This document shows, piece after piece, positions 13,501 to 45,812 of a DNA stretch of 48,751 nt; position 1 is the stretch's first letter, and each line of letters begins with the position of its first letter. The position numbers and the translations under genes were made by a program. The stretch is taken from positions 1 through 48,751 of the IMG/VR virus record IMGVR_UViG_3300021368_000260, one strand, 5' to 3'. The DNA is from a virus. The notes below the pieces were generated by a model. That model ran no database searches. It had not been told where the DNA came from and saw only the letters and a list, made by a program, of their open reading frames with translations.

Positions 13501-14963
13501 TTGTTTCTAGAAGATTTGACATCTTAAGTGAAAGAGACATTGGTGTATCACTTGTTACACTAAATCTTAACACTCAAGTACAAGGATTTGGTATGAATGC
13601 CATTTCCTTCATTAGTGAGATTAGTGACGCTGGTCTTACTGGTATTTCTTCTGGATCTAGTGTATCTCTTGGTATTCCAACTTCTGAGATTGATATTGAG
13701 AGAGTATTCACACCAGATGAAATTGAAGTATTCTCTATTGGTGGACAATTAGATCCTCAGAGAGATGTTATTGAAGTTAAGTCTTGGCAGGAGACATCTG
13801 CTGCTAATGTTCCATTAATTGACACATTCCACAATGCAACAGTTGTATCTGCTGAAGTACAAGACATCGTTACTGTCAATTCTATCTCGACAGTAAGTAA
13901 GGCAATCACAACCACTATTGAGAATCTAATTCCTAATGATGCGTTGTCTAATGTCAACTTCTTTGAGACTGCTGCTTACTTACAGGTTGACCTTGCTCCT
14001 GGTGAGACAGTTGTATACATCCCAGACACCACTAAGTTTGATCCTAATGGTTTCTTACTTATTGGAGATGAGGTTGTATTCTACAGCAAGAAACTAAATG
14101 ATCGTTTCATTAAAGTTGATAGAGCACAAAGAGGAACAACCGAGAAAGGATGGTTAGCAGGAACCTTCATTAGACAGATCCCAGAACTTGTATCTGTTGC
14201 ATTCGGTGGTGTACTTGAGATCCAGAGTGAAAGCGATGTCACGATGGTATCTGCTGGATTTGTAGATTCTGGATTTGAAAGAAAGGTAGAAAGACAAGTA
14301 ACTGCTCCTGAAGAGTTGGATATTACCAAGTCTGCATTGGAAGTTGTTCTTACTCCTCCACCTGGCGGAGTTATCGATGGATACGAGGAAACTGCATTTA
14401 TTACAGATCCTGTTATCAAGAGAGATGGTTCTTCTGTTGATCTAATTGATGTACAAGGTCTATATTATGTTCTCAAGAGAGATACTACACAAGTTCAGGT
14501 TGTAAACTCCGTGTTTGGAGTTGATACTGGTTACATTGGACAGTATACCAGAACCAATGTCGGACATACTATTAGTATGTTTGATGGCATCTTCGATGAT
14601 GGTGTTGCCAATGCTTCTGGTCTTTCTATCCTAGAGTTCTCTACTTATTTCCCTGCATTCAGAATTGAAGACTTCACTAAGCGTGCTAAGTCTAGTTACA
14701 CTATCGCTGGTGCATACTTCAATCTACTACCACCATCCATCCAGAACCCTGTTGCTGTAACAAGTAGTTCTGGAACAATTCCGTCCACTGTTCAGGTACA
14801 AGATACTACATTGTTCCCAACAACTGGATATGTATTCACCTCTGGTGGATCAGTTATACAATACACTGGTAAGACATCCAATTCATTTACTGGATGCACA
14901 CATGTTAAGGGTCCAACTACCATTTCAAATGGACAACAGTTGGTTCCGCATACAATTACCTAA
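4572..14963 (+). CDS. 7: Giant gp7-like baseplate wedge protein with large insertions
   Basis: A 3463-aa protein between gp6 and gp8, where T4 has gp7 (1032 aa). Residues about 18-62 (ELFSKFVQKYYEAQ...) and 177-215 (KRTLIKNIQKFYKSKGTKSS) resemble the C-terminal part of T4 gp7 (RDAVARFFESRSYDFYSTKG). Residues about 1820-1850 (QWRELIKSTTHPAGFQLFG) resemble the later T4 segment SDVIRFVHPVGFGF. About 1,600 residues separate the two blocks, far more than in T4. The insertion holds beta repeats and a YHYH-like domain near 755-865. The second half has three 'LDGVLQ' strand repeats (near 10530, 12190 and 12510), helical modules near 10770-11950, and more beta repeats. The gp7 link is from memory of T4 gp7 and gene order. 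Alternative name: virion structural protein. Confidence 0.75.
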   Translation: MPAVKTKRISTLIETQLPAFISDEYELFSKFVQKYYEAQEVQGGTLDVINNIQKYADIDFYEKSILKQHDVLAGAITNSDTTITVTDAQSFPKKNGYIRIDDEIIFYATRTDTEFQECSRGVSGNTSLGDLYEASNFTSTDAAAHVAGQKVYNVSNLFLYALVKNFEKQYLGSFPEKYLRGEVDKRTLIKNIQKFYKSKGTKSSIQFIFNTIVSTDGDKPETYKPRDFTYKSSNADWISNYALKCKIVSGDPKLLIGKPVIQAETTEYGFASATVDNVQADGTRDGEQIYNIILAPETVNGDFFVSTKTKLARSLSGTATSGNRINVFSTNGWGKKGSILIGDETIEFDQKNATQFIIKNRQPSSALTYPSGTEVYKPVTVTGSGVTMLVLGIVYNLETLDTQPYSSVGDQILVSNPGFETADPKIIDITTNQTRWLLDNGSSVNIPTLPAVATSLNEVTTNVTSIHEDDQYYYITSSGYPSHKILDGSLVSDTLLDQNILRLIRKEATTSTERYQTPKADTSIFLNGVRGYSYRDAESIRYGVLEEIKVDTQGRGYNDPPFVLVDQVPSKAIAVLAGQVVERIIVNTTTIFPKTPTIEITSGRGAVVRAVVTGGKVTSLQIDNPGEYYSTPPVVRITDMAGRGRFASFTSIVNAQGELTGFETVDEGNFYNQNTVKVDIIPVGEGASANPLLKEWNFNRYAKIGTNLDTENGYVFPNYNNVLEHGYGYVANPKALRVALSDNINSAGTEPANKTHSPILGFAYDGNPIYGPFGHENPLDVSSPIVRMTSSYGLNNTRSNGPNVSTYPLGSFVNDYTYTHKSGSLDENNGRFCITPEFPKGTYAYFLTIDSNQVPQFPYILGANFYSLPVDSNYNSNINQNDVPKNAKRYYIPGMPRNGEGFIGSISDVTSGTIDAIESIASSNNFSVNNKVYFNNLGTEGSEAEANVSSVKGKVVDYLQSKETKVVKLTTIQTAYLFENDTLRQPSSGAFGEIVGTVRSDNTIVLKNVNGTFDTTGTFSADIKTFSLLLDQDSSYTEGATVTLTNGIDPSTTTAEILEGTNKQNVVKIKVTGGTWGVDDDFFLQSSNLFDTIGSRIIVLTSLSDNLEPFEVNQSVALVETTTAHGLGIGDKVDVDINPDDATKNKTYYVRKRIYQTANLLAPEANSTIDFTGIGRFEILNGGADYTAGTYNNIALTGGSGTGATASITVSDAGIVSSVQLQNAGSGYAKGDYLAVADEDLVRSGASQSTQRLVVFVDHVGFAAGQTQVTVKDSTRYADGDLISIGSEVLEISSISGQVLTVIRGREGTSDIDHYNDQPVTLYKPKYNFSANQQIFTGAYSGYIQSYDRETQSIVIFYDYATEISTANELTPSSSFFDVSSQDRLVSIDSVGSLIYKFEFSEDNTTFTPNPDINVQEFYKYTFDTSHSSLTGTYFDMSPSKSYNLKTLEKTASTVLPGNPGAFTDVKFGFGARLASNNYSKKVGTDFTNFYYFDNKGIVNAEGKSLRIITDPLQGVKTVNYVTSTRFVYDIDSEPLWDGSGSISYTTTGQFAVGEINSYAITNLGLNYKKVPVIDGVDPNEKFRATATVLFDQASQTIVGIDVTNKGSNYSNPKVIITNGDGVNATFKVVVRNGEIFSIVVDNPGRGYTFTPEVAIVEGDVEAYVDSTTIGIPRSISITNNGGSFHLDKTVSSTFSSNYIVTVAKNNNTSYRKGELVTQTVNGVEVFRATVTEWRKGSNLLKLRSVTGIVRENVEIRGAGPNARGTVRKVYVTTFSEDIASFYDNIGYFKSDRGRLGVSNQKVLDSYFYQDYSYVVKSKTPIDQWRELIKSTTHPAGFQLFGQVDIEATATTEMPAEMPKADHFTILQLWDPEKNRITVENTTRVVTQTLQKVENQRIRKAQGSAAASEFLFNEMLAFEVRIFNNTPGYYDDVTNPPAPQLPKPWYFKNPFTGYYDGDGRLQGKTTFDLRNVNTDTVFTPYDEKNLIVTLDGVLQDPGVSYTVSGSQITFSAPPLGANQKQTGEGTTDVTKYGGVNFYAKYVAFKDNQYNDKHFRKLKNIYQRNGRWIDAANQIERNTDFIIDETLGYARATHPSLDWATKTDDYQRNIRSILEAYDHDLRFGGNIKTIDYTSIFNSDSEYLYIQNNRSASTDIFSYATRLAKLAIRNWDYIDVNITYIQGSTVMNVSSTDNIAIGMYVSSGRAYPEGTKVVSIDSDTQITLSRAALANSAGGGGVPAGNTPLSGGGTTGVLPTSTASVAPGNTFSVPPGQTVSVGVSFSGTDQATFSWSNLNNGTFYDAGTLINLNRSFIISATESYRAANVNTAVSAALCEKLIGRQIDDIVYHLRYGGNQRLVQNTRLDFWVETGYPDGEIRKITTDGGINSLDGMDLIFDYARDQMILAMRNLGQVTDPDVLIDNLTPLCADVESSLMTFSSISKDIMRYGPGYVVETKQNLNRPGNWAAKLTYSNIHIIGDPILPVGECDDVVSATDSLFANVRDILEQEDVTRSLPDFIDGETKDFELYWDNGSPVKLEEDENLFLTINAVLQRPKYTENYPLFDAYFIDRSVIPNLIKFDVAPIWDQDLGAKSIGEPTAVEKVVGIGVGNYKRLTIDYALVNGVRTGPFLILDVEDNTVQNIESEDNLYVFLDGVLQQKGERQSYTISGPNIFFNVPIQPEVKIDMRYLYGRDVGQILNIYDYAPDTYFARARLEIDFDSSILSPYQTYSWMGDKIGSPIHVWQVKADGTFNVIGEVSNLFASGNTLAWDLKSQNASIDETLDLVFGVKGYYNRTFVVAAANYTNINLVYKTDELGRKVLEDDNALWSGTFLGKTYRSPFLSLSSGDQIRVEGEEGFRKIKRLPQTATSKDGRPGEQLTDDIYGAVSIETYTGITRGEGLAVVATIENGSVVSLTWNQRSYDPLTQPTAYQYYTPPVLKFIPKNGNGGGARANVLVAKGQVISVDLIDGGSGYTEAPQVIVSRRFDILSERDIGVSLVTLNLNTQVQGFGMNAISFISEISDAGLTGISSGSSVSLGIPTSEIDIERVFTPDEIEVFSIGGQLDPQRDVIEVKSWQETSAANVPLIDTFHNATVVSAEVQDIVTVNSISTVSKAITTTIENLIPNDALSNVNFFETAAYLQVDLAPGETVVYIPDTTKFDPNGFLLIGDEVVFYSKKLNDRFIKVDRAQRGTTEKGWLAGTFIRQIPELVSVAFGGVLEIQSESDVTMVSAGFVDSGFERKVERQVTAPEELDITKSALEVVLTPPPGGVIDGYEETAFITDPVIKRDGSSVDLIDVQGLYYVLKRDTTQVQVVNSVFGVDTGYIGQYTRTNVGHTISMFDGIFDDGVANASGLSILEFSTYFPAFRIEDFTKRAKSSYTIAGAYFNLLPPSIQNPVAVTSSSGTIPSTVQVQDTTLFPTTGYVFTSGGSVIQYTGKTSNSFTGCTHVKGPTTISNGQQLVPHTIT
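6222..6615 (+). repeat. GGSGY-type beta repeats (gp7-like, first cluster)
   Basis: Three successive degenerate repeats, each of the form 'G.V..I...N.G.GY..PP.V.I....G.GA.A.A', seen as QGRGYNDPPFVLV, NPGEYYSTPPVVRI and DEGNFYNQNTVKV. The same unit recurs in five other genes of the window. Confidence 0.75.
6838..7170 (+). other. YHYH-like domain inside the gp7-like protein
   Basis: Residues about 755-865 show the order of the YHYH domain family: SPILGFAYDGNPIYGPFG, then SLDENNGRF, then KGTYAYFLT and FPYILG. The signature 'YHYH' tetrad reads TYAYF here, so the canonical histidines are replaced. The function of this domain in phage tails is not known. Confidence 0.7.
8100..8285 (+). repeat. GGSGY-type beta repeats (gp7-like, second cluster)
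   Basis: Two repeats: LNGGADYTAGTYNNIALTGG then SGTGATASITV, and NAGSGYAKGDYLAV. The GGSGTGATA core is almost identical to one in the 1713-aa fibre protein. Confidence 0.7.
9235..9575 (+). repeat. GGSGY-type beta repeats (gp7-like, third cluster)
   Basis: Three repeats, LGLNYKKVPVI, NKGSNYSNPKVIITNGDG and NPGRGYTFTPEVAIVEGD, immediately before the return to gp7-like sequence near residue 1820. Confidence 0.7.
10771..11950 (+). repeat. Helical 'DFI..GGN..NW' modules in the gp7-like protein
   Basis: Residues about 2067-2460 contain DAANQIERNTDFIID, HPSL, YQRNIRSIL, HDLRFGGN and LAIRNWDY in order, then a second partial copy: YHLRYGGN, LAMRNLGQ and PLCADVESSL. The same ordered motifs occur twice in the 3020-aa fibre protein. 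A beta segment (IQGSTVMNVSSTDNIAIGMY) separates the two copies. Confidence 0.7.
13366..13505 (+). repeat. GGSGY-type beta repeat (gp7-like, fourth cluster)
   Basis: PPVLKFIPKNGNGGGARANV followed by IDGGSGYTEAPQVIVS, the clearest copy of the unit in this gene. Confidence 0.75.
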
Positions 14964-14984
14964 ATATTGCTATAAATATAAATA
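14960..14984 (+). promoter_or_regulatory. Tandem overlapping late-promoter-like boxes before gene 8
   Basis: CTAAATA at 14960-14966 overlaps the stop of the gp7-like gene. Two exact TATAAATA boxes follow, at 14971-14978 and 14977-14984, sharing two bases. They lie 38-44 bases before the gene 8 ATG. Two perfect T4-consensus late boxes suggest a strong late start for genes 8 onward. Confidence 0.75.
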
Positions 14985-15021: not shown

Positions 15022-16836
15022 ATGGCTGCTATTATTTCTGATAAGTTTCGTATCTTTAACGCGAAACAATTCCTAGAATCCCTCACAGAGGGCGCGACTG
15101 ATACGAGCGCAGAGCGTTCTAGAATGTACTTCTTTGTGGGTCGTCCGCAACCTTGGAGAGCATATCTTGAAATCTACTCCAAGAACGCAACCGCATTTAC
15201 AGTTGGTAACGAGGTGTATGTAGGAACATACGGTTCCACCACCTTCCGTGCCACGATTGCTGCAGTTTATGATAGTGCCCTCCTTCTAACCGACGTTTTT
15301 GGCAGCAATGGTATTAACTCTGCTCCTGCTCTAGGAACCGACCTTAAGTGCCGTACTGGTGGTGCTGGTGGATCTGACACAGGTGCTACTGCTAAGTCTG
15401 GCGTTTATCGTTATGCAGACGAGAACATTCCACCTCTTCCTCTTGACAACCAGTCTGAGAAGATTGCTCTGTATGACGAACTAATCGCTGCAAAGCGTAT
15501 TACTGATTCTTATGCAAGAACTGTTATCCGTCGTTACAACTGGGACCTAGTTGCTAACCCTAAGTACGACATGTGGAAACCTGACTACTCTGCTACTCCT
15601 GGTGGCGGTGGTCAAATTGGTAAGCAAACCGCAACTGGCGCTAACAGCATTGCTGACGCTAAGTTCTATGTAATGAACTCTTCTTACGAAGTATTTAAGT
15701 GCCTCTACAATGGTGAGGATCCTTCTAACGCTACTGGACAGAACGCGACTGAGGAACCATCTGTAGCAGGTGCTAACTATGATTCTGCAACTGGTCTCTA
15801 TACTGAGACAACTGGTGCTGGTTACATCTGGAAGTATATGTACACCATCCCAACTGATGATGTTCTGAAGTTCCTATCTTCCGACTTCATGCCAATCGTT
15901 CTTCCTGCTAACGCATCTAGAACTGGTGTTGTTTCTGCTGCTGTTGCAGGCGCTATCGACGCTGTACTAGTAGAAGATGCTGGTGCTGGTCTACCTGCTT
16001 CCCAAACCCTTTATACAAGCATCAAAGGAGACGGAACTGGTGGTGTAGTACAACTAGTAACTAACGGTTCTGGTACAATCACTTCTGCAAGTGTACAAGC
16101 AAGAGGATCAGGTTACACTTATGCTAATATTCTTCTTGGTAATGGCAACCTCTTCTCTGACACTGGTCTAAGCAGCGCAGTTGCGACTGGTTCTGGTGCA
16201 ACTGGTGCTATTGAAGCAATCCTACCTCCCGAGGGCGGTCATGGTTCTGATCATGAAACAGAACTTAACGGTAAGCGCGTAATGACAAACATTCGCCTAA
16301 CCTACGCTGAAGGTTCTGGTGACTTCCCTGTTGATAACGATTTCCGTCGTATTGGTATTATTGCTGATCCACTTGAGTGGGGTACAACAACATTTGCTAC
16401 TGCAGATACCCTCTCTGGTCTAAAGTCTATCAAGATTACTGGTGCTACCGCAGATTACAACACTGACGAGAAGATTGTTCAGACTGTAACTGGTGGTACT
16501 GCATACGGTACAGTTGTTTCCTGGACTTTGGATAGTGGTTCTACAACTGCTGGTGTACTTAAGTATATCCAAACAAACGATGCACACACTGATCAAGGTG
16601 TAGTAAGAGCATTCGAGAGCAATGGTTCTAATGCAATTACTGGAGAAAGTTCCGCTGCTTCTGGTAACGTAGATACTTCTTATGCTTCTACACTACTTGG
16701 CGTAACATTCTCTAGTGGTCTTGCTGCTCCAGAAGTCGAGAACAACTCTGGTGACGTTATCTACGTTGAGAACCGTCGTCTGATCACTCGTGCTGCTGAC
16801 CAGATCGAAGATATCAAACTAGTTATTGAGTTCTAA
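15022..16836 (+). CDS. 8: Baseplate wedge subunit gp8, enlarged
   Basis: A 604-aa protein (T4 gp8 is 334 aa). Landmarks line up with T4 gp8: an N-terminal ISDKFRIFNAKQFL with FFVGRPQPW (T4 FITFGRSEPW), then VIRRYNWDLVANPKYDMWK (T4 VIPRRDWGDTRYPDPY), YEVFKCLYN, GAGYIWKYMYTIP (T4 GDGYVWEYLFEIP), RRIGIIADPLEWG, and the C-terminal GDVIYVENRRLITRAADQIE. Extra sequence is inserted near residues 50-130, 310-410 (GGSGY-type repeats) and 455-580. gp8 dimers join the wedge with gp7 and gp10 in T4. The gene sits directly after the gp7-like gene under its own late promoter. Confidence 0.92.
   Translation: MAAIISDKFRIFNAKQFLESLTEGATDTSAERSRMYFFVGRPQPWRAYLEIYSKNATAFTVGNEVYVGTYGSTTFRATIAAVYDSALLLTDVFGSNGINSAPALGTDLKCRTGGAGGSDTGATAKSGVYRYADENIPPLPLDNQSEKIALYDELIAAKRITDSYARTVIRRYNWDLVANPKYDMWKPDYSATPGGGGQIGKQTATGANSIADAKFYVMNSSYEVFKCLYNGEDPSNATGQNATEEPSVAGANYDSATGLYTETTGAGYIWKYMYTIPTDDVLKFLSSDFMPIVLPANASRTGVVSAAVAGAIDAVLVEDAGAGLPASQTLYTSIKGDGTGGVVQLVTNGSGTITSASVQARGSGYTYANILLGNGNLFSDTGLSSAVATGSGATGAIEAILPPEGGHGSDHETELNGKRVMTNIRLTYAEGSGDFPVDNDFRRIGIIADPLEWGTTTFATADTLSGLKSIKITGATADYNTDEKIVQTVTGGTAYGTVVSWTLDSGSTTAGVLKYIQTNDAHTDQGVVRAFESNGSNAITGESSAASGNVDTSYASTLLGVTFSSGLAAPEVENNSGDVIYVENRRLITRAADQIEDIKLVIEF
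15961..16150 (+). repeat. GGSGY-type beta repeats in gp8
   Basis: Residues about 313-377: VLVEDAGAGLPASQTLYTSI and SVQARGSGYTYANILLGNG, an insertion relative to T4 gp8 of the same repeat family as in the gp7-like protein. Confidence 0.65.
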
Positions 16837-16840
16837 TTAC

Positions 16841-16880
16841 TTCGCTAAATACTAGGGACTAGATACTAGTATTTGGCGGA
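16841..16880 (+). promoter_or_regulatory. Hairpin overlapping late promoter and ribosome-binding site
   Basis: The arms 16841-16855 (TTCGCTAAATACTAG) and 16866-16880 (CTAGTATTTGGCGGA) pair over 15 positions with two G-U wobbles and no mismatch, around a 10-base loop. The right arm contains GGCGGA, the likely Shine-Dalgarno 5 bases before ATG 16886. The left arm contains the CTAAATA box. There is no T-run, so it is not a classical terminator. Confidence 0.8.
16844..16851 (+). promoter_or_regulatory. Late-promoter-like box before the DUF4815 gene
   Basis: GCTAAATA, 34 bases before the ATG at 16886 and 7 bases after the gene 8 stop. If starts fall 5-7 bases downstream, as for T4 late promoters, the RNA would begin near 16857. 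Confidence 0.6.
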
Positions 16881-16885
16881 GCAAG

Positions 16886-19800
16886 ATGCCTCAGAAGACT
16901 AACCTAAATGTAAATCCTTATTACGAGGACTTTGACGCGAGTAAGAATTTTTATAAGATTCTATTCCGTCCTGGATACTCTATTCAAGGTAGGGAACTAA
17001 CGCAAGTTCAATCCATTCTCCAGAACCAGATTGAGAGTTTTGGAAAGTATGCTTTTAAGCAGGGTGAACAGGTAATTCCTGGTGAGGTAGGTCTCAACAC
17101 AAAATTAGATTACGTTAAACTATCGTCTGTCTCAGAGGTTGCTATCTCAGAGGGAGACGATATTGTTTATAAAAAGTATGACATTACTCAGTTGGTAGGT
17201 CAACAGTTAAGAGGTCTAACCTCTGGTGTTCTAGGAACTGTTCTCTCTACGAGAAATGCAACTGAAACCAATGCAGACACATTATTTGTAAGTTATCTCA
17301 ATAGTGGTAACTCTAACACTGAACCAACATTCCGCCAAGGTGAGACATTAGAAGTTGTCGATGGTGTAAACACTCCTCTACTAGTTGTTGGAACAGATGG
17401 TAGCGTACTTCCTACTAGTATTTCTGTTACTAATCCTGACACAGGTGAAGTAACATCTCTTGACAGTCCAGCAATGGGTTATGGTTCTGCTGTCAAGGTA
17501 GAAGAAGGTATCTATTTTGTTAATGGTTATTTTGTTCGTAATGATGAGCAACTCCTCGTTATCGAAGAGTATTATGACAAACCATCTGCAAAAGTAGGAT
17601 TTACAATTAAGGAAGCGATTGCAACTCCTGAGACTGATGCGTCTCTTTATGATAATGCTATTGGCAGTTCTAACTACACTGCACCTGGAGCTCACAGACT
17701 GCAGATCAGTCTAGAGATGAAAGAGTTTGCTCTAGATGCAATTACTGATAAGAATTTTATTCAACTCCTTACTGTTAAGAGAGGTGTTGTACAAAGAAAG
17801 ATTACCACTACAGATTTTAGTGTACTAGAGCAAACTCTAGCACGCAGAACATATGATGAGAGTGGTGATTATGTTGTCACCAACTTTGACATCAACATGC
17901 GTGAGTGGGCGCAGAAAGATGGTAACAGAGGTATCTACGCTGCAGATGAATTTGGTCTCTATAATGGATATGACCAAGGCGTAGCTGCTAGAAAAATGAT
18001 CGCTAGCATTGGTCCTGGTAAGGCATATGTTAGAGGATATGAGATTGTAAACAAAGAAATCAAATATCTTGAAATTAACAAAGCAAGAGAAAGTCTAACC
18101 AGTGAAAATGTAACTGTAAAATCAAAGAGACTTCCTACTCTTAATGTTACTAACGTATATGGTAGTGTTCCTCTAAACAAAGAAGGTGCTGAATTAACAG
18201 CATATCCTGATGTGTTTCTCTATGGATCTTTTAATGATGCATCTATTGGTGTAAATGGAACTGAGGCAACCACAGAACACAGACAAACTATCGTAAGAAG
18301 AGGACTTAACCTCACAGCAGATGATGGTATTAAAACTCTTACCCTTAAGGTAAACGGTCTTAATGGTCAACCAAATCTAGCAGATATTACAGATGCTAAC
18401 TTTGAGAGCAAGTATGGAACTCTATACTATATCAGATCTTATAGTGCAGAGGGAACTGCTACAGATGTTGGAACTCTAACTGCTGTATCTTTTGCTACTA
18501 TCAACAGACCTTCTATTGATACTAATGAATCAACACAGTTCCTTGAAATTACTGTTGTAGGTAAAAAGAATGAATTAGATCAACTCTTGATTGAGTATGA
18601 TGATGGTATTGCAGATAAAATTAGAAAACTATACATTTCCAGAACTGACGCAGAATCTACTAGTGCAGTTACGTCATATTGGGCAGAAGTAAAGGATTAC
18701 AGAAATACATTTACTCCTTTGATTGGTAAAGTAAAACCAAACAACTTCTTCCTTAAAAAGAGAGGTGCTGGTTTCAATTCTGATTCTGACGTTATTCTTT
18801 CTAAAGGTCGTCTAGCAGGTGGAACATCAGTATATAATTCTATCTTTGGATTATCATATTTTGATCCTCAGTTCTTTACCAAGATCATTCTAGAAACTGC
18901 TCCTACTGGATACGATGAAGGTAAGTATGTATTTGGTTTAGAAAGTGGTGCATATGGTGTTGTCGAAGGAACAGCATCTGGTGTTTATTCTGCTGGCAGA
19001 ATTCTCTTCGTTAAGACTTTATCTGGTAACTTCTTACCAGGAGAATCTATCAGAGATGAAGATGATAATACAGTAAGGATTGCTAAGAACAATACAATTT
19101 CTCACTTCATTGTTAACAATAGAGGTGCTGGTTATGCAACTGGTGCTGGTGTTCAGATCAATGGTGTAACTTATGATAGTTCTAAAATTCTAGCAGAGAC
19201 CACTGGTGGATCTGTTTATAAAGTAGGTATTGTTAATGCTTCTTTTGTAAGAAATCTTGAGTACACTCAACCACCTGAAGTTATTATTACTGGATCTGGA
19301 TCTGCAGGTGGTGCAGCATCAGTACGTGCAGTATTGGTTAGAGATGCTGTAACAACTTATCGTCCACAGAATGTTAAGTCTATTGGTTCTTCTTATGGTT
19401 CTGGTGGTGCTAACAAATTTAGTGCTGATGTTGTAGTAGATAATCAGTCATATGCAGATCTCACTGACGTTACAAGTTTCACTTTCTTTGGTAGAAAGGG
19501 AACAACATTTGTAGAATCTACAAGTTTCAGTGCTGATGCTGCTGGTTTCCTACAGCAAGGAGACTTAATTCAATTCTCTGATGAAGATAATAACATTATT
19601 CGTACTACAGTAGAATATGCTACTCAAGCAGAGGGTGTCGATAAGACCAGAATTTATCTAGATCAAGCATTGCCAGGTAATGTTGTTAACACAAGCATTG
19701 TACGTTTACGTCCAAAAGCAGAAAACACTAATGGTGGAACTCTACTTTACCCAACTGGTAGTAAGCAAGTAGTACAAATTTCTGCTGGTGGTGATGATAC

Positions 19801-22800
19801 TAAGATCAAATACTATTTCCGTAGAGATTTTGTAACTACTGCCGCTTCTGGTGATGGACTTATCACTTTTGCTGCTCAGTTACCATTCGGAACACAAAGA
19901 TTTGCTGCTTACACAGAAGAAAATTATATCATCACTGTACTTGACCCAGGTGATGCACCTAACATTGCAAAGGGTGATATCGTTTACATTCCTGCAGATT
20001 CTGTTTCTATCTCTTCTGCTACAGATACTGCTAGTGGTCTTACTTCTGGTAGTATTAATCTAAATGTCCCTGAAGGATATTTTGGAACTGTTCCTTCAAA
20101 TGGAACATTCCCTAAACTTAAGTTGACTGCAACTCTAGAAGTATCTAACGCAAAACCAAGACTTAAGACTGCTGTAAGAAACAAGAGAATTGTTGTTACT
20201 GCATCTGGTGACCGTGTTATTCCTCTAAGAGGTAATGATTATGATAGTGATGTTATCGAACTAATTTCTTACTCTGATGTATTTAAACTCAGATATGTTT
20301 ATGAGGGAACACCATCACAACCACCTGAAGTTGATACTGCTGGTAATCTAGTATCTGGTATAGATGTTACTGATCGCTATACTTTCGATGATGGTCAAAG
20401 AGATACATTATATGATGTATCCAGACTAGTTCTAAAACCAGGATTTGAATCTTCTACTGGACAACTAGTAATTGCATTTGATTTCTTTGTACATTCTCAA
20501 GGTGATTTCTGTACTATTGACAGTTACTTGCATGAAGCAGGTGTTGGAGAAGATGAAATTCCAGGATTTAACTCTCCTGTACTAGGCAATCTAGAACTTA
20601 AGAATGTAATTGACTTCCGTCCAAAGGTTGATAACAATGCTATCATCCCAGGTTATCTTGATAAGTCTTTACTAGAAGTAACCGAAGGATCTTTCTCTGG
20701 TTCTGGTGCTGTTATTGCTAGCAGTCCAGCATCTGATAATGGTCTAGAATATACATTCTCGTTTAGTCAGAAAGAGTATCTAGATCGTATTGATGGTGTG
20801 TTCCTTAACAAGAAGGGTGAGTTTATCGTCAAAGAAGGTAATTCTTCACTCAACCCTGTAAAACCAGAACCAATTGATGATGCTATTGCACTGTTTTACG
20901 CTTACATCCCTGCTTATACAAGGACAAGCAAGGATGTAAGGATTACCCCAGTGGATAATAGACGCTACACGATGAGGGATATCGGCAAGCTGGAGAAGCG
21001 TATTGAGCGTCTTGAATATTATACCACACTTAGCATCCTTGAGCAACAAGCTCTCAACATGCAAGTTAGAGACAGTGTTGGCATGGACAGATTTAAGTCT
21101 GGTTTCTTTGTTGACAATTTTGAGGCACATAGCGTTGGTAACCTAACCTCTCTTGATTATCGTTGTGCTATTGATCCACAACAGTCTGTTTTGCGTCCTC
21201 AATCTAGAGAAGATAGCATTGATCTTGTAGAAGTCAATGTAAGAGAAGACCAAAGATCTGTTGCAGGTTATAAGAAGAGTGGACACATGGTGACATTGCC
21301 ATACACACCACTTTCTTTACTAGGAAATAGTGCTGCATCTAAGAAGATCAATCCAAATCCATTTGTTGTTGTGCAGTATGTTGGTGATGGTGAACTTTCC
21401 CCATCTATCGACCAATGGTATGATCAACATGAAGAACCATTAGTTGTAGATACAAATACAAACCTATACACTATCTTCCTTGCAAAGGATAACACTAAAG
21501 AATCTTTCTCTAGTATCCATAACTCTTTCATCATTAACTGGGTTGGTGCAGCACCAGCATTTGCTTCTATCAATTCTCTTGGTGAAGTAAATACACAGCA
21601 AGCAATTGCAACTGTTACATCTGCTTCTGTTGCAAGTTCTTCTAACATCAGTCCACAGAATAATGATGTTGGCAAGGGTGTACAGACTAAGACTGTGAGA
21701 GGAAATGTTGTTTCCAACTCTCTATCATTCTTTGCTAGAAGTCTTCCTATTAAGTATGTCATTAGAAGAATGAAACCTAATACGAAGATGTATGTCTTCC
21801 TTGAGGGTAGAAATATTGATCGTTGGGTTAACCCTGATTTGAGATTTACAGGTATCGCTGGTAACTCTCTATCTGCATTTAATGGTGGTATTACTACTGA
21901 TGAATATGGTAACGCATCTGGTTTAATTATTCTTCCTGGTGGATATGCACCTACTGAAAATGCAGTATGGAATGGAGATGTTGATACACTATCATACGAT
22001 ACAAGTTCTGAACAAATTAATGTTTCTACTGGAGATCTAACATTCAGATTTACTTCTAGTGCTACAAACGAGAGTAAAAATGATGCTAGTGTTAACTACA
22101 CTGAAGTTAAGTATTATGCAACTGGTATCTTACCAGAAAATCCATCTAGTATTGTATCTACAAAACCATCTACTTTCAAATCCAATGAAGGTGTACAAAC
22201 TGTAGAGAGCAATACTGACAATCCAATAAGACCTAATCCTCTTGCTCAAATGTTTAAGGTTGAAAACCAAGAGGGTGGATGTTTCGTTACTGGTGTAGAT
22301 CTCTTCTTCAATAAGAAAGACCCATACATTCCAGTCAAGGCATACATTACTGATGTAGATGCAGAAAAACCAGGAAAGAATATTGTTCCTGGATCTGAAA
22401 AAACACTATCACCAAATACCTTCCTCAAGTGTTATACAAATGGTGATGTTGCTGTTTATAAAAATGAAAATGTAACAGGTGTTACATCTGCTGCATCTGG
22501 TCCTATTCTACAAATCTTCGATAAGAACAATGTAGAACTAGTTGCTACTGCATCTGGTAAGTATAGTCTTACAAATGAGCAAGTATACACTATTGTACTT
22601 GGTAATCACAATGGTAAATCTTTTGTACAAAATGAAGATCTAGAAATTCCTTCTCTAACTCTTGCTAATGATACAGGTGGAACTAATTTAAAACTTACTA
22701 TTGCAAAGGACAGTGGTAAACTTTCTGGTATTAGAGTTACTAACCCTGGTCTAAATTATGATAGTGCAATTCTAACTATTGAAAGTCCACAATTGCCAGG

Positions 22801-24982
22801 TGGATCTACTGCTACTGCTGCTGTAGAAGTTTCTGGTGGTAAGATTTACAATGCAGAAATTTCTCTGAGTGGTTTTGGATATACAGAGGCACCTTCCGTT
22901 GTTGTCAAAGGTATTGGTAATGGTGCAGGTGGATGCGAAATTCAAACCATTATTGATATTGATACACCTGCAGTAAGAATGGGTGTTTCAATTGACGTAG
23001 AGGGAGTTACAGAATCTACAACTCCAACACACTTTGCTTTTGATTATCCTGTATATCTACAAAATGATACTGAGTATGCTCTAGTTGTGGAAACAGATTC
23101 CACTGATTATGAGTTGTGGTCTTCTCTCTTGGGTGAGACTGACATCTCTACTAGCACAGTTATTACAACTCAAGCATCTCTAGGTTCTCTCTACAAGTCT
23201 CAGAACACTGAGAGTTGGCAAGAAGACAATGCAGAAGACTTGAAGTTTACTCTATATCGTGCAGAGTTTGATATTTCTAGAACTGCAAATCTTCTACTCA
23301 AGAATGATAATCTTGGATATGAACTATTACAGGAAAATCCATTCGAGACAAATGCAAGTGCTGCTACAAATGCTACTTCCAAACTATTCAAGAATAACAA
23401 TAAGATTGTAAAAGCAAATCATAGAGATCATGGTTTTGAAGACAGTGGTAAATCCTATGTCTTCTACAGAACTGCACAGGAAACTGGTGGTGTAACAGCA
23501 GATATTCTGAATAGCACTCTATTCCAAATTTCTAATAGTGGTGTTGATACTTATAATATTACATCTATAACTAACGCTTCTAGTAATTCGTTTGGTGGTG
23601 GTTCTGTTGTATATGGTACTCATAATAGAAAGTTTGAAACTTTATATCCTTTAGTTGGATATCTATCATTTACTGGTACAAAAGTAGAAAGTTTCATTAA
23701 AACAACCAATATTGTTCCTGTAGATAGTTCTACTACTAACTATGTTTCATATTCTCAAACAGATTATGAAAAAACTTTCTTAAACGAACCACAGTATTTT
23801 ACTAATCAAAAGATTGTCGCATCTGAGATTAATGAGACTCTAAACAATCTTGATCAGTCTTTGGTCTATAAGATCCAACTATCTTCTACTGCTTCTAACT
23901 TATCTCCAATTTTCGATCTTTCCAATGCATCAGTTAAAACTTCTACTACTAGAGTTGAAAATGGTGCTGGTAAAGAGACTAGATTTGGTAGACAAGATCA
24001 GAAGATTAAGTTCTTCCCAGTTTATCAATTCCAACTCTCTGGAAATGGTGGAACAGAAATTCAGACAGGTCAAGTTATCAAAGGTCAGACAACAAAGGCA
24101 TCTGGAACAATTGCAAGAGTAAATGGTTCTGTTGTTTATGTTCGCGTCAAGACACAGCAGTTCTTCCAGCAAGGTGAAACAGTTAGTCTTGGTGACCAAG
24201 CACAATTGACTTCGGTAATTGTAGATTCTAATCCTGCAGAACTATTCTTTGATATCGCAGATGGTGCAACTATTGTAGCACGTAATCCATCTGTTATCCT
24301 AGAGACATATGACAATATTATTACTGGTAAATCAGTCCTTTGGAATAGCAGATCTCAAGAGTTGACATTGAGAACTGATATTCAACCAATCAATGATGAT
24401 TTTACTGGAAAAATTCTTGGCAATGCTGCATTTGCCAGAGGAGCAGATACTGCTAATCAAACTCCAGATATCTTCCGTGTTGGTGATATTGTAAAATATC
24501 CTACACAAGAAGATACAGAAGCAAGTTATCTAGAAGTTGGATCGATTGAATACACAAACGGTATTGACTTTGTTGCAGAAGATACATCTAAGAATAGTTC
24601 TTCTATTGCTAAGTATGTAACTAAGGAAGTTGGTATTTCTAATCCTGGAACTTCTATTGATGTAAGACTAACTGCCAATGTCAAAGATATTGCAAATGTA
24701 AAAGTTCTTTACAGATTTAAGAAGGCATCCAGTCAAGAAAACTTTGAAGATATCGATTGGGAATACTTCAATACAGATGGTTCTCCTGATGTTCTTGAAA
24801 TTGCAACCAGTGAAAATAATATTTCTAGTGTTACTGAAAAGCAATCTTCTTATCAAGAACTCAAGTACAGTGTATCTGATCTACCAGAGTTTGCCTCTTT
24901 TGCAGTCAAGATTGTAATGATGACTGTAGATCCCGCGTATGCTCCAAAGGTCCAAGATATTCGTGCAGTTGCCTCTTTCTAA
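16886..24982 (+). CDS. DUF4815-type large baseplate/tail structural protein
   Basis: A 2698-aa protein. The N-terminus (NLNVNPYYEDFDASKNFYKI, LFRPGYSIQGRELTQVQSIL, QNQIESFGKYAFKQGE) is the DUF4815 signature found in T4-like cyanophage virion proteins. A coiled-coil region near residues 1363-1385 (KLEKRIERLEYYTTLSILEQ) and NPLAQMFKV with GVDLFF near 1785 are further conserved landmarks. GGSGY-type repeats occur at about residues 745-815 and 1940-2025. The C-terminus (PAYAPKVQDIRAVASF) ends in the usual 'P.V.D.RA.A' strand. Its position after gp8 corresponds to T4 genes 9-10, so a peripheral baseplate role is inferred. The start is set by GGCGGA 5 bases upstream. Its expression may be gated by the hairpin before it. 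Confidence 0.85.
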   Translation: MPQKTNLNVNPYYEDFDASKNFYKILFRPGYSIQGRELTQVQSILQNQIESFGKYAFKQGEQVIPGEVGLNTKLDYVKLSSVSEVAISEGDDIVYKKYDITQLVGQQLRGLTSGVLGTVLSTRNATETNADTLFVSYLNSGNSNTEPTFRQGETLEVVDGVNTPLLVVGTDGSVLPTSISVTNPDTGEVTSLDSPAMGYGSAVKVEEGIYFVNGYFVRNDEQLLVIEEYYDKPSAKVGFTIKEAIATPETDASLYDNAIGSSNYTAPGAHRLQISLEMKEFALDAITDKNFIQLLTVKRGVVQRKITTTDFSVLEQTLARRTYDESGDYVVTNFDINMREWAQKDGNRGIYAADEFGLYNGYDQGVAARKMIASIGPGKAYVRGYEIVNKEIKYLEINKARESLTSENVTVKSKRLPTLNVTNVYGSVPLNKEGAELTAYPDVFLYGSFNDASIGVNGTEATTEHRQTIVRRGLNLTADDGIKTLTLKVNGLNGQPNLADITDANFESKYGTLYYIRSYSAEGTATDVGTLTAVSFATINRPSIDTNESTQFLEITVVGKKNELDQLLIEYDDGIADKIRKLYISRTDAESTSAVTSYWAEVKDYRNTFTPLIGKVKPNNFFLKKRGAGFNSDSDVILSKGRLAGGTSVYNSIFGLSYFDPQFFTKIILETAPTGYDEGKYVFGLESGAYGVVEGTASGVYSAGRILFVKTLSGNFLPGESIRDEDDNTVRIAKNNTISHFIVNNRGAGYATGAGVQINGVTYDSSKILAETTGGSVYKVGIVNASFVRNLEYTQPPEVIITGSGSAGGAASVRAVLVRDAVTTYRPQNVKSIGSSYGSGGANKFSADVVVDNQSYADLTDVTSFTFFGRKGTTFVESTSFSADAAGFLQQGDLIQFSDEDNNIIRTTVEYATQAEGVDKTRIYLDQALPGNVVNTSIVRLRPKAENTNGGTLLYPTGSKQVVQISAGGDDTKIKYYFRRDFVTTAASGDGLITFAAQLPFGTQRFAAYTEENYIITVLDPGDAPNIAKGDIVYIPADSVSISSATDTASGLTSGSINLNVPEGYFGTVPSNGTFPKLKLTATLEVSNAKPRLKTAVRNKRIVVTASGDRVIPLRGNDYDSDVIELISYSDVFKLRYVYEGTPSQPPEVDTAGNLVSGIDVTDRYTFDDGQRDTLYDVSRLVLKPGFESSTGQLVIAFDFFVHSQGDFCTIDSYLHEAGVGEDEIPGFNSPVLGNLELKNVIDFRPKVDNNAIIPGYLDKSLLEVTEGSFSGSGAVIASSPASDNGLEYTFSFSQKEYLDRIDGVFLNKKGEFIVKEGNSSLNPVKPEPIDDAIALFYAYIPAYTRTSKDVRITPVDNRRYTMRDIGKLEKRIERLEYYTTLSILEQQALNMQVRDSVGMDRFKSGFFVDNFEAHSVGNLTSLDYRCAIDPQQSVLRPQSREDSIDLVEVNVREDQRSVAGYKKSGHMVTLPYTPLSLLGNSAASKKINPNPFVVVQYVGDGELSPSIDQWYDQHEEPLVVDTNTNLYTIFLAKDNTKESFSSIHNSFIINWVGAAPAFASINSLGEVNTQQAIATVTSASVASSSNISPQNNDVGKGVQTKTVRGNVVSNSLSFFARSLPIKYVIRRMKPNTKMYVFLEGRNIDRWVNPDLRFTGIAGNSLSAFNGGITTDEYGNASGLIILPGGYAPTENAVWNGDVDTLSYDTSSEQINVSTGDLTFRFTSSATNESKNDASVNYTEVKYYATGILPENPSSIVSTKPSTFKSNEGVQTVESNTDNPIRPNPLAQMFKVENQEGGCFVTGVDLFFNKKDPYIPVKAYITDVDAEKPGKNIVPGSEKTLSPNTFLKCYTNGDVAVYKNENVTGVTSAASGPILQIFDKNNVELVATASGKYSLTNEQVYTIVLGNHNGKSFVQNEDLEIPSLTLANDTGGTNLKLTIAKDSGKLSGIRVTNPGLNYDSAILTIESPQLPGGSTATAAVEVSGGKIYNAEISLSGFGYTEAPSVVVKGIGNGAGGCEIQTIIDIDTPAVRMGVSIDVEGVTESTTPTHFAFDYPVYLQNDTEYALVVETDSTDYELWSSLLGETDISTSTVITTQASLGSLYKSQNTESWQEDNAEDLKFTLYRAEFDISRTANLLLKNDNLGYELLQENPFETNASAATNATSKLFKNNNKIVKANHRDHGFEDSGKSYVFYRTAQETGGVTADILNSTLFQISNSGVDTYNITSITNASSNSFGGGSVVYGTHNRKFETLYPLVGYLSFTGTKVESFIKTTNIVPVDSSTTNYVSYSQTDYEKTFLNEPQYFTNQKIVASEINETLNNLDQSLVYKIQLSSTASNLSPIFDLSNASVKTSTTRVENGAGKETRFGRQDQKIKFFPVYQFQLSGNGGTEIQTGQVIKGQTTKASGTIARVNGSVVYVRVKTQQFFQQGETVSLGDQAQLTSVIVDSNPAELFFDIADGATIVARNPSVILETYDNIITGKSVLWNSRSQELTLRTDIQPINDDFTGKILGNAAFARGADTANQTPDIFRVGDIVKYPTQEDTEASYLEVGSIEYTNGIDFVAEDTSKNSSSIAKYVTKEVGISNPGTSIDVRLTANVKDIANVKVLYRFKKASSQENFEDIDWEYFNTDGSPDVLEIATSENNISSVTEKQSSYQELKYSVSDLPEFASFAVKIVMMTVDPAYAPKVQDIRAVASF
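19100..19330 (+). repeat. GGSGY-type beta repeats in the DUF4815 protein (first cluster)
   Basis: FIVNNRGAGYATGAGVQING and QPPEVIITGSGSAGGAASV, spaced as in the other genes. Confidence 0.65.
22700..22960 (+). repeat. GGSGY-type beta repeats in the DUF4815 protein (second cluster)
   Basis: IRVTNPGLNYDSAILTIESP and ISLSGFGYTEAPSVVVKGIG, followed by GNGAGGCE. The TEAPxVxV core matches the gp7-like copy near 13480. Confidence 0.7.
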
Positions 24983-45774: not shown

Positions 45775-45812
45775 AAATCCCTTCTTCCTAAATAGGAGAG
45801 AAGGGATTTTTT
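45775..45812 (+). terminator. Rho-independent terminator after the 66-aa gene
   Basis: AAATCCCTTCT (45775-45785) pairs perfectly with AGAAGGGATTT (45799-45809). An inner TCCT/AGGA stem of 4 bp with one bulged G closes a 4-base loop. The hairpin runs into six T residues (45807-45812). Confidence 0.88.
45788..45794 (+). promoter_or_regulatory. Late-promoter-like box inside the terminator loop, before gene 13
   Basis: CTAAATA spans the inner stem and loop of the terminator, 26 bases before the gene 13 ATG. An additional AATAAATA lies at 45765-45772 over the stop of the previous gene. The distance to the ATG matches the other late boxes here. Confidence 0.6.

Follow-up and report, generated by a model that had tools for sequence, protein, structure and literature searches.

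The locus described here lies between two virion genes in a stretch of 48,751 nucleotides of DNA from a marine cyanobacterial virus (IMG/VR record IMGVR_UViG_3300021368_000260, positions 1 to 48,751), hereafter the window. The stop codon of gene 8 (16834-16836) stands 3 nt 5' of a long hairpin, which leads into the start of a giant gene. The features are as follows:

14960-14984, + strand: three late boxes 5' of gene 8 (CTAAATA at 14960; TATAAATA at 14971 and 14977)
15022-16836, + strand: gene 8, baseplate wedge (Pfam Phage-Gp8 and PHROG baseplate wedge matches)
16840-16855, + strand: left (5') arm of the hairpin (sequence reading, fold and inverted-repeat scan)
16845-16851, + strand: T4-type late promoter box CTAAATA (word scan; -13 to -6 rule, PMC1524935)
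16857, + strand: predicted late transcription start, taking the box end at 16851 as -6
16858-16870, + strand: short 5-bp stem predicted for the late leader instead of the hairpin (16858-16862 paired with 16866-16870), which leaves the Shine-Dalgarno open (fold)
16866-16881, + strand: right (3') arm of the hairpin with the Shine-Dalgarno (sequence reading, fold and inverted-repeat scan)
16878-16881, + strand: GGAG, core of the Shine-Dalgarno (predicted probability of being unpaired: 0.002 when RNA reads through, 0.65 in late RNA)
16886-24982, + strand: gene for a giant structural protein of 2698 aa (DUF4815 match; start codon at 16886)

Profile matches place gp25, gp6 and a 3463-aa protein 5' of gp8. 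The gp25, gp6 and gp8 genes code for late structural proteins and have late boxes of their own, at 2348 and 14960-14984. The former is a late-like box (GATAAATA, 2348-2380) lying immediately 5' of gp25, and it is the probable start of the late baseplate transcript. The three boxes of the latter group span 25 bases, the first of them sharing bases with the stop codon of the gene for the 3463-aa protein, and they are a likely source of RNA reading through gene 8. Among relatives, the DUF4815 gene is labelled as coding for a structural, "virulence-associated" or baseplate protein; searching the open-access literature, we found nothing on DUF4815 function in phages.

Read directly, positions 16840-16881 consist of CTTCGCTAAATACTAG, a 10-nt loop (GGACTAGATA) and CTAGTATTTGGCGGAG. 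The 15-bp hairpin with two G-U pairs that the earlier note had described (16841-16855 with 16866-16880) is present, and an additional C16840-G16881 pair extends it to 16 bp without mismatch, the G-U pairs being 16842/16879 and 16846/16875. The RNA of 16830-16890 folds at -22.8 kcal/mol, compared with a mean of -10.4 for shuffled sequences (z = -4.97; none of 200 shuffles equals it), and, of the intergenic inverted repeats that a scan of the window returned, this hairpin is the strongest and the longest near-perfect one. It is not an intrinsic terminator: the sequence 3' of the right arm (CAAGATGCC) lacks the U run of a Rho-independent terminator, a terminator scan of the window did not return the hairpin, and this reading was dropped because there is no U tract.

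The left arm contains the CTAAATA box, as claimed. T4 late boxes occupy positions -13 to -6 (PMC1524935), a rule that puts the predicted +1 at 16857, in agreement with the start proposed earlier. This start lies downstream of the whole left arm, which would thus be absent from RNA started there. T4-type late promoters, recognized by gp55, carry (T/N)ATAAATA or CTAAATA at -13/-12 to -6 upstream of late genes; NATAAATA is documented as a late box in S-PM2, and CTAAATA in Aeh1. Over the whole window, CTAAATA is no commoner than expected (6 copies found, 9.6 expected). All six copies are on the + strand, and five of them fall at gene junctions, which account for 1.4% of the window's length (P = 3.6e-9). 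This strand bias and junction placement indicate that the late-box reading is sound, and the CTAAATA of the window qualifies by its placement as a gp55-type late promoter.

The ribosome-binding site had been given as GGCGGA; its location in the right arm is right, and its core is better given as GGAG, four bases 5' of the ATG at 16886. According to the earlier note, RNA reading through from gene 8 would hide this site and late RNA would expose it, and the predicted folds of the two RNAs agree (0.002 vs 0.65). RNA beginning at 16857 is predicted to form only the weak 5-bp stem and a 4-bp GGCG/UGCC stem, also weak, in which GGCG partly pairs with the start-codon UG while GGAG stays mostly open. 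The predicted cost of freeing bases -12 to -5 falls from 16.5 kcal/mol when RNA reads through to 4.9 kcal/mol when it begins at 16857. GGAG has a predicted unpaired probability of 0.62-0.68 for every start from 16855 to 16862, and the contrast between the two RNAs persists at 22 C. When the leader was shuffled with box and Shine-Dalgarno held fixed, the extra cost of opening the site in read-through RNA averaged 0.2 kcal/mol and reached 6.9 at most, so that none of 1000 shuffles attained the observed 11.5 kcal/mol. The 38 late-box/start pairs of the window and the complete S-WAM2 genome likewise have a median extra cost of 0.2 kcal/mol, and the cost is 10 or more in just two, the DUF4815 site of the window and one S-WAM2 gene.

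Such an arrangement is known from T4. The late promoter of gene e lies in DNA that codes for the 5' strand of its stem, soc, 49 and I-TevI being listed likewise, and a reduction of about 100-fold is reported for gene e (PMC3014915). In I-TevI, I-TevII, I-TevIII, segB and mobE of Aeh1, a stable hairpin on the longer RNA covers the ribosome-binding site, and the I-TevI RNA from the adjacent late promoter is too short to form it (PMC2988022). By its sequence features, the window hairpin would belong with the e, soc, 49 and I-TevI leaders. As in the T4 genes, in which the Shine-Dalgarno and/or start codon is paired in RNA started upstream and late RNA lacks the 5' strand and is translated well, its ribosome-binding site is predicted to be paired in upstream-started RNA and accessible in late RNA, and its late box, with a start predicted from the position rule, is in the DNA of the 5' strand. 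The host, the box (CTAAATA) and the target gene are different, and the window case is known from predicted folds. Besides, T4 silences early and middle read-through RNA in e, soc and 49, whereas the genes upstream of the window hairpin are late structural genes; the T4 precedent invoked earlier thus holds for the arrangement and may or may not extend to the silencing of early RNAs. The I-TevI/II/III, segB and mobE leaders share with the window a site hidden on the longer RNA by a stable hairpin, but they serve homing endonucleases in early or middle units instead of a virion structural gene. No report of a ribosome-site-hiding late leader in a cyanophage was found in the open-access literature, which omits most subscription papers; all that it yielded was a psbA 5'-UTR hairpin in S-PM2, with no effect ascribed to it.

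Ten phage records, together with viral contigs searched in five protein scans, supplied the gp8-DUF4815 junction at 234 loci. As these loci include duplicates, counts refer to distinct sequences, namely 61 leaders with a common TGG(C/T)G Shine-Dalgarno arm. All 61 carry a late-type box (CTAAATA or TATAAATA). An intrinsic terminator (e.g. CCCCCGAGAGATCGGGGGATTTTTTTT) lies between gp8 and the box in 21 of them and is absent from the other 40; the gene pair occurs with the terminator in the cultured phages S-WAM2 and S-RSM4, and without it in environmental contigs. A tree built from the first 600 coding bases of these loci requires at least about seven changes of terminator state, three of them forced by well-supported branches. 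In all six named contrasts between near relatives, hiding is weaker where the terminator is present (extra cost in kcal/mol):

Window, 10.4 (no terminator); L004, 1.6 (terminator)
L191, 13.8 (no terminator); L206, -0.9 (terminator)
L070, 14.4 (no terminator); L060, 4.4 (terminator)
L014, 13.2 (no terminator); L026, 1.5 (terminator)
L042, 4.6 (no terminator); L163, -0.2 (terminator)
L043, 9.7 (no terminator); L176, 0.7 (terminator)

The median extra opening cost is 5.3 kcal/mol without a terminator (n = 40) and 1.9 with one (n = 21; Mann-Whitney, 5e-5), the tree-corrected regression gives a terminator effect of -7.0 kcal/mol (p ~1e-6), and the lower stem, which covers the Shine-Dalgarno, stands at -9.1 without and -4.2 with a terminator (p 1e-13); as the terminator and the left arm adjoin, however, they may be swapped as a single block by recombination, and these p-values therefore overstate the number of independent events. 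Well-supported branches yield just three independent pairs, all or nearly all in the expected direction, which are too few for a sign test to reach significance. The upper stem does not differ between the two groups of leaders (p 0.39). In 17 of 19 distinct terminator-less lower stems (18 of 19 with G-U), the C of GGCGG is Watson-Crick paired with the base 5' of the box; none of the seven distinct lower stems accompanied by a terminator has this pair. This is the pattern expected if the site needs hiding only where transcription is not stopped upstream. There are departures from it: L065, L137 and L053 lack a terminator and show little site hiding. The distant clade of Syn1, S-PM2 and S-RIM32 retains the late box, in another small hairpin, but the gene there has no Shine-Dalgarno and its start region is not occluded; in the Syn1/S-PM2 clade (L090, L091 and L207-L237), the DUF4815 late box sits in the loop of CCTAACCT-CCTAAATA-AGGTTAGG. 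The outcome that the earlier note had named as a refutation, relatives keeping the promoter without the pairing, is thus realized in that clade, while terminator-less relatives retain the pairing, so that this check comes out mixed.

The compensatory changes anticipated in the same gap of relatives do occur, but few were found and covariation is weak. In fixed-register alignments, 45 of 500 shuffles scored as high in one test and 127 of 500 in another, and a swap test gave p values of 0.015-0.04. The clearest changes, CTAG/CTAG, CTAA/TTAG and CTAC/GTAG, affect the upper end of the stem. Paired cells amount to 84% in register, as compared with at most 52% when the arms are slid. RNAalifold detected no structure in an automatic alignment of the 61 leaders, probably because indels in the loop and the right arm defeat the alignment.

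From the observed sequence, predicted folds and comparative pattern, we infer where late transcription starts, that read-through RNA exists and in what amount, and how translation is affected, and regard it as probable that the hairpin insulates the DUF4815 gene from upstream read-through, the terminator of related phages being an alternative insulator. RNA reading through from gene 8 would hold both arms and form the 16-bp stem, barring ribosomes from GGAG, while RNA made by the late polymerase from about 16857 would lack the left arm and be translatable. Production of the giant protein would then depend solely on the gene's own late promoter, and its dose would be separate from that of the gp25-gp6-gp8 transcript. 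In related phages, a terminator between gp8 and the DUF4815 gene would do the same job, and the part of the stem that hides the ribosome site would be relaxed. The earlier note left dose or timing as the purpose; because the upstream genes are also late, uncoupling of dose is at least as likely as timing, and separate dosing of the giant protein is likely, rather than a T4-style block on early synthesis.

Three other explanations need to be weighed. Ribosomes ending gene 8 might open the lower stem and pass to the DUF4815 start, in which case translation would be dependent on gene 8 instead of being shut off. A terminating ribosome is expected, from its footprint, to reach into the lower stem, and in the window group the gene 8 stop is indeed close enough. 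However, stop-to-box spacing varies from 8 nt in this group to about 15-18 nt in many strongly occluded relatives without a terminator (L191, L070, L043), and relatives with a terminator would have lost coupling entirely; we thus hold translational coupling to be unlikely. Less likely still is that the stem serves gene 8 RNA mainly as a 3'-end or processing signal (a nuclease barrier or RNase III site), with hiding of the Shine-Dalgarno incidental. Sixteen base pairs are long enough for a double-strand RNase, the intrinsic terminator found at the same place in relatives also yields a 3' end, and total stem energy, too, differs between leaders with and without a terminator (p 0.001). Yet these groups differ in the lower stem, the part covering the Shine-Dalgarno, and not in the upper one, and the window stem is without the U tract and the scan hit of a terminator.

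Finally, the pairing itself might be under no selection, the arms being conserved separately (the left for the promoter box, the right for the Shine-Dalgarno and leader) and matching by chance. The weak covariation of arms that vary little and the lack of pairing in the Syn1/S-PM2 clade speak for this explanation. It is at odds with the failure of any fixed-element shuffle to reach the effect, with the unpaired state of nearly all other late boxes and starts of the window and S-WAM2, and with a pairing that follows terminator absence and is tied to its register. Pure coincidence is unlikely, and we give it the least weight of the three. Insulation of the DUF4815 gene from read-through remains the reading that we prefer.

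Hairpins combining a late box with a ribosome-binding site also occur elsewhere in cyanophages. A compact cassette, CCTCCC-TCTAAATAGTTAGA-CGGGAGG-TTTTTT-ATG, is built on a terminator-like hairpin: the late box occupies the tip, the 3' arm doubles as the Shine-Dalgarno, and the U tract acts as spacer. It takes up about 40 bases (CCTCCC(..)CTAAATAGTTAGACGGGAGG, then TTTTTT and ATG) in S-WAM2 (L242:4180-4208), ACG-2014i, Syn1 and Sf-CH1b, and its loci include L248, L249, L250 and, from IMG/VR, L251-L330. At least 120 viral-contig stretches matched in a pattern scan, and in 119 of these a long ORF starts at most 30 nt downstream; the adjoining ORFs form nine clusters with no detectable mutual similarity and no assigned function. 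The window hairpin resembles the one found 5' of phrog_1462 and other genes in having a late box in the hairpin and a Shine-Dalgarno in the 3' arm, but the phrog_1462 type is terminator-like with the U tract as spacer, and the window hairpin has no U tract. The spread of the cassette suggests that the window hairpin is part of a wider habit of cyanophage late genes. We see an even chance that these genes share a family of late-box hairpins merging promoter, read-through block and ribosome-binding site, with a window type (site hiding, swapped with a terminator) and a compact-cassette type before at least nine unrelated gene families. No general excess of intergenic late boxes in hairpins was seen in the window and S-WAM2, where a crude pair-count criterion places 8 of 19 CTAAATA copies in hairpins and 0-71% of control words.

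Two further arrangements were observed. At 45775-45810 of the window, and likewise in S-WAM2, a terminator-like hairpin (AAATCCCTTCTTCCTAAATAGGAGAGAAGGGATTTTTT) with CTAAATA in its loop (45788 in the window) directly precedes a neck/head-tail gene, which starts at 45811 in the window. In the leader of the tail sheath gene 18 (L241:20060-20130 in S-WAM2; also L243, L244 and L245), ACCTCT 5' of the late box can pair in read-through RNA with the Shine-Dalgarno AGAGGT; this pairing is present in S-WAM2, S-RSM4, S-CAM4 and ACG-2014e, and absent from ACG-2014h and S-PM2.

The late leaders known to hide their ribosome-binding sites in T4 belong to genes for lysis, capsid decoration, nucleases and homing endonucleases, a range that a giant virion gene would widen. 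If our interpretation is correct, RNA-seq coverage over gp8-DUF4815 could inflate the apparent expression of the DUF4815 gene. Hiding of the ribosome-binding site would be general in T4-like viruses and would be used here between two late genes, hence for dose and not for timing. Evolution would moreover exchange a site-hiding hairpin with transcription termination, and the swap of hairpin and terminator would amount to a direct comparative test of function. T4-type leaders have not been described as swapping with a terminator in the T4 literature that we examined; in cyanophages, the comparison of relatives suggests that they do.
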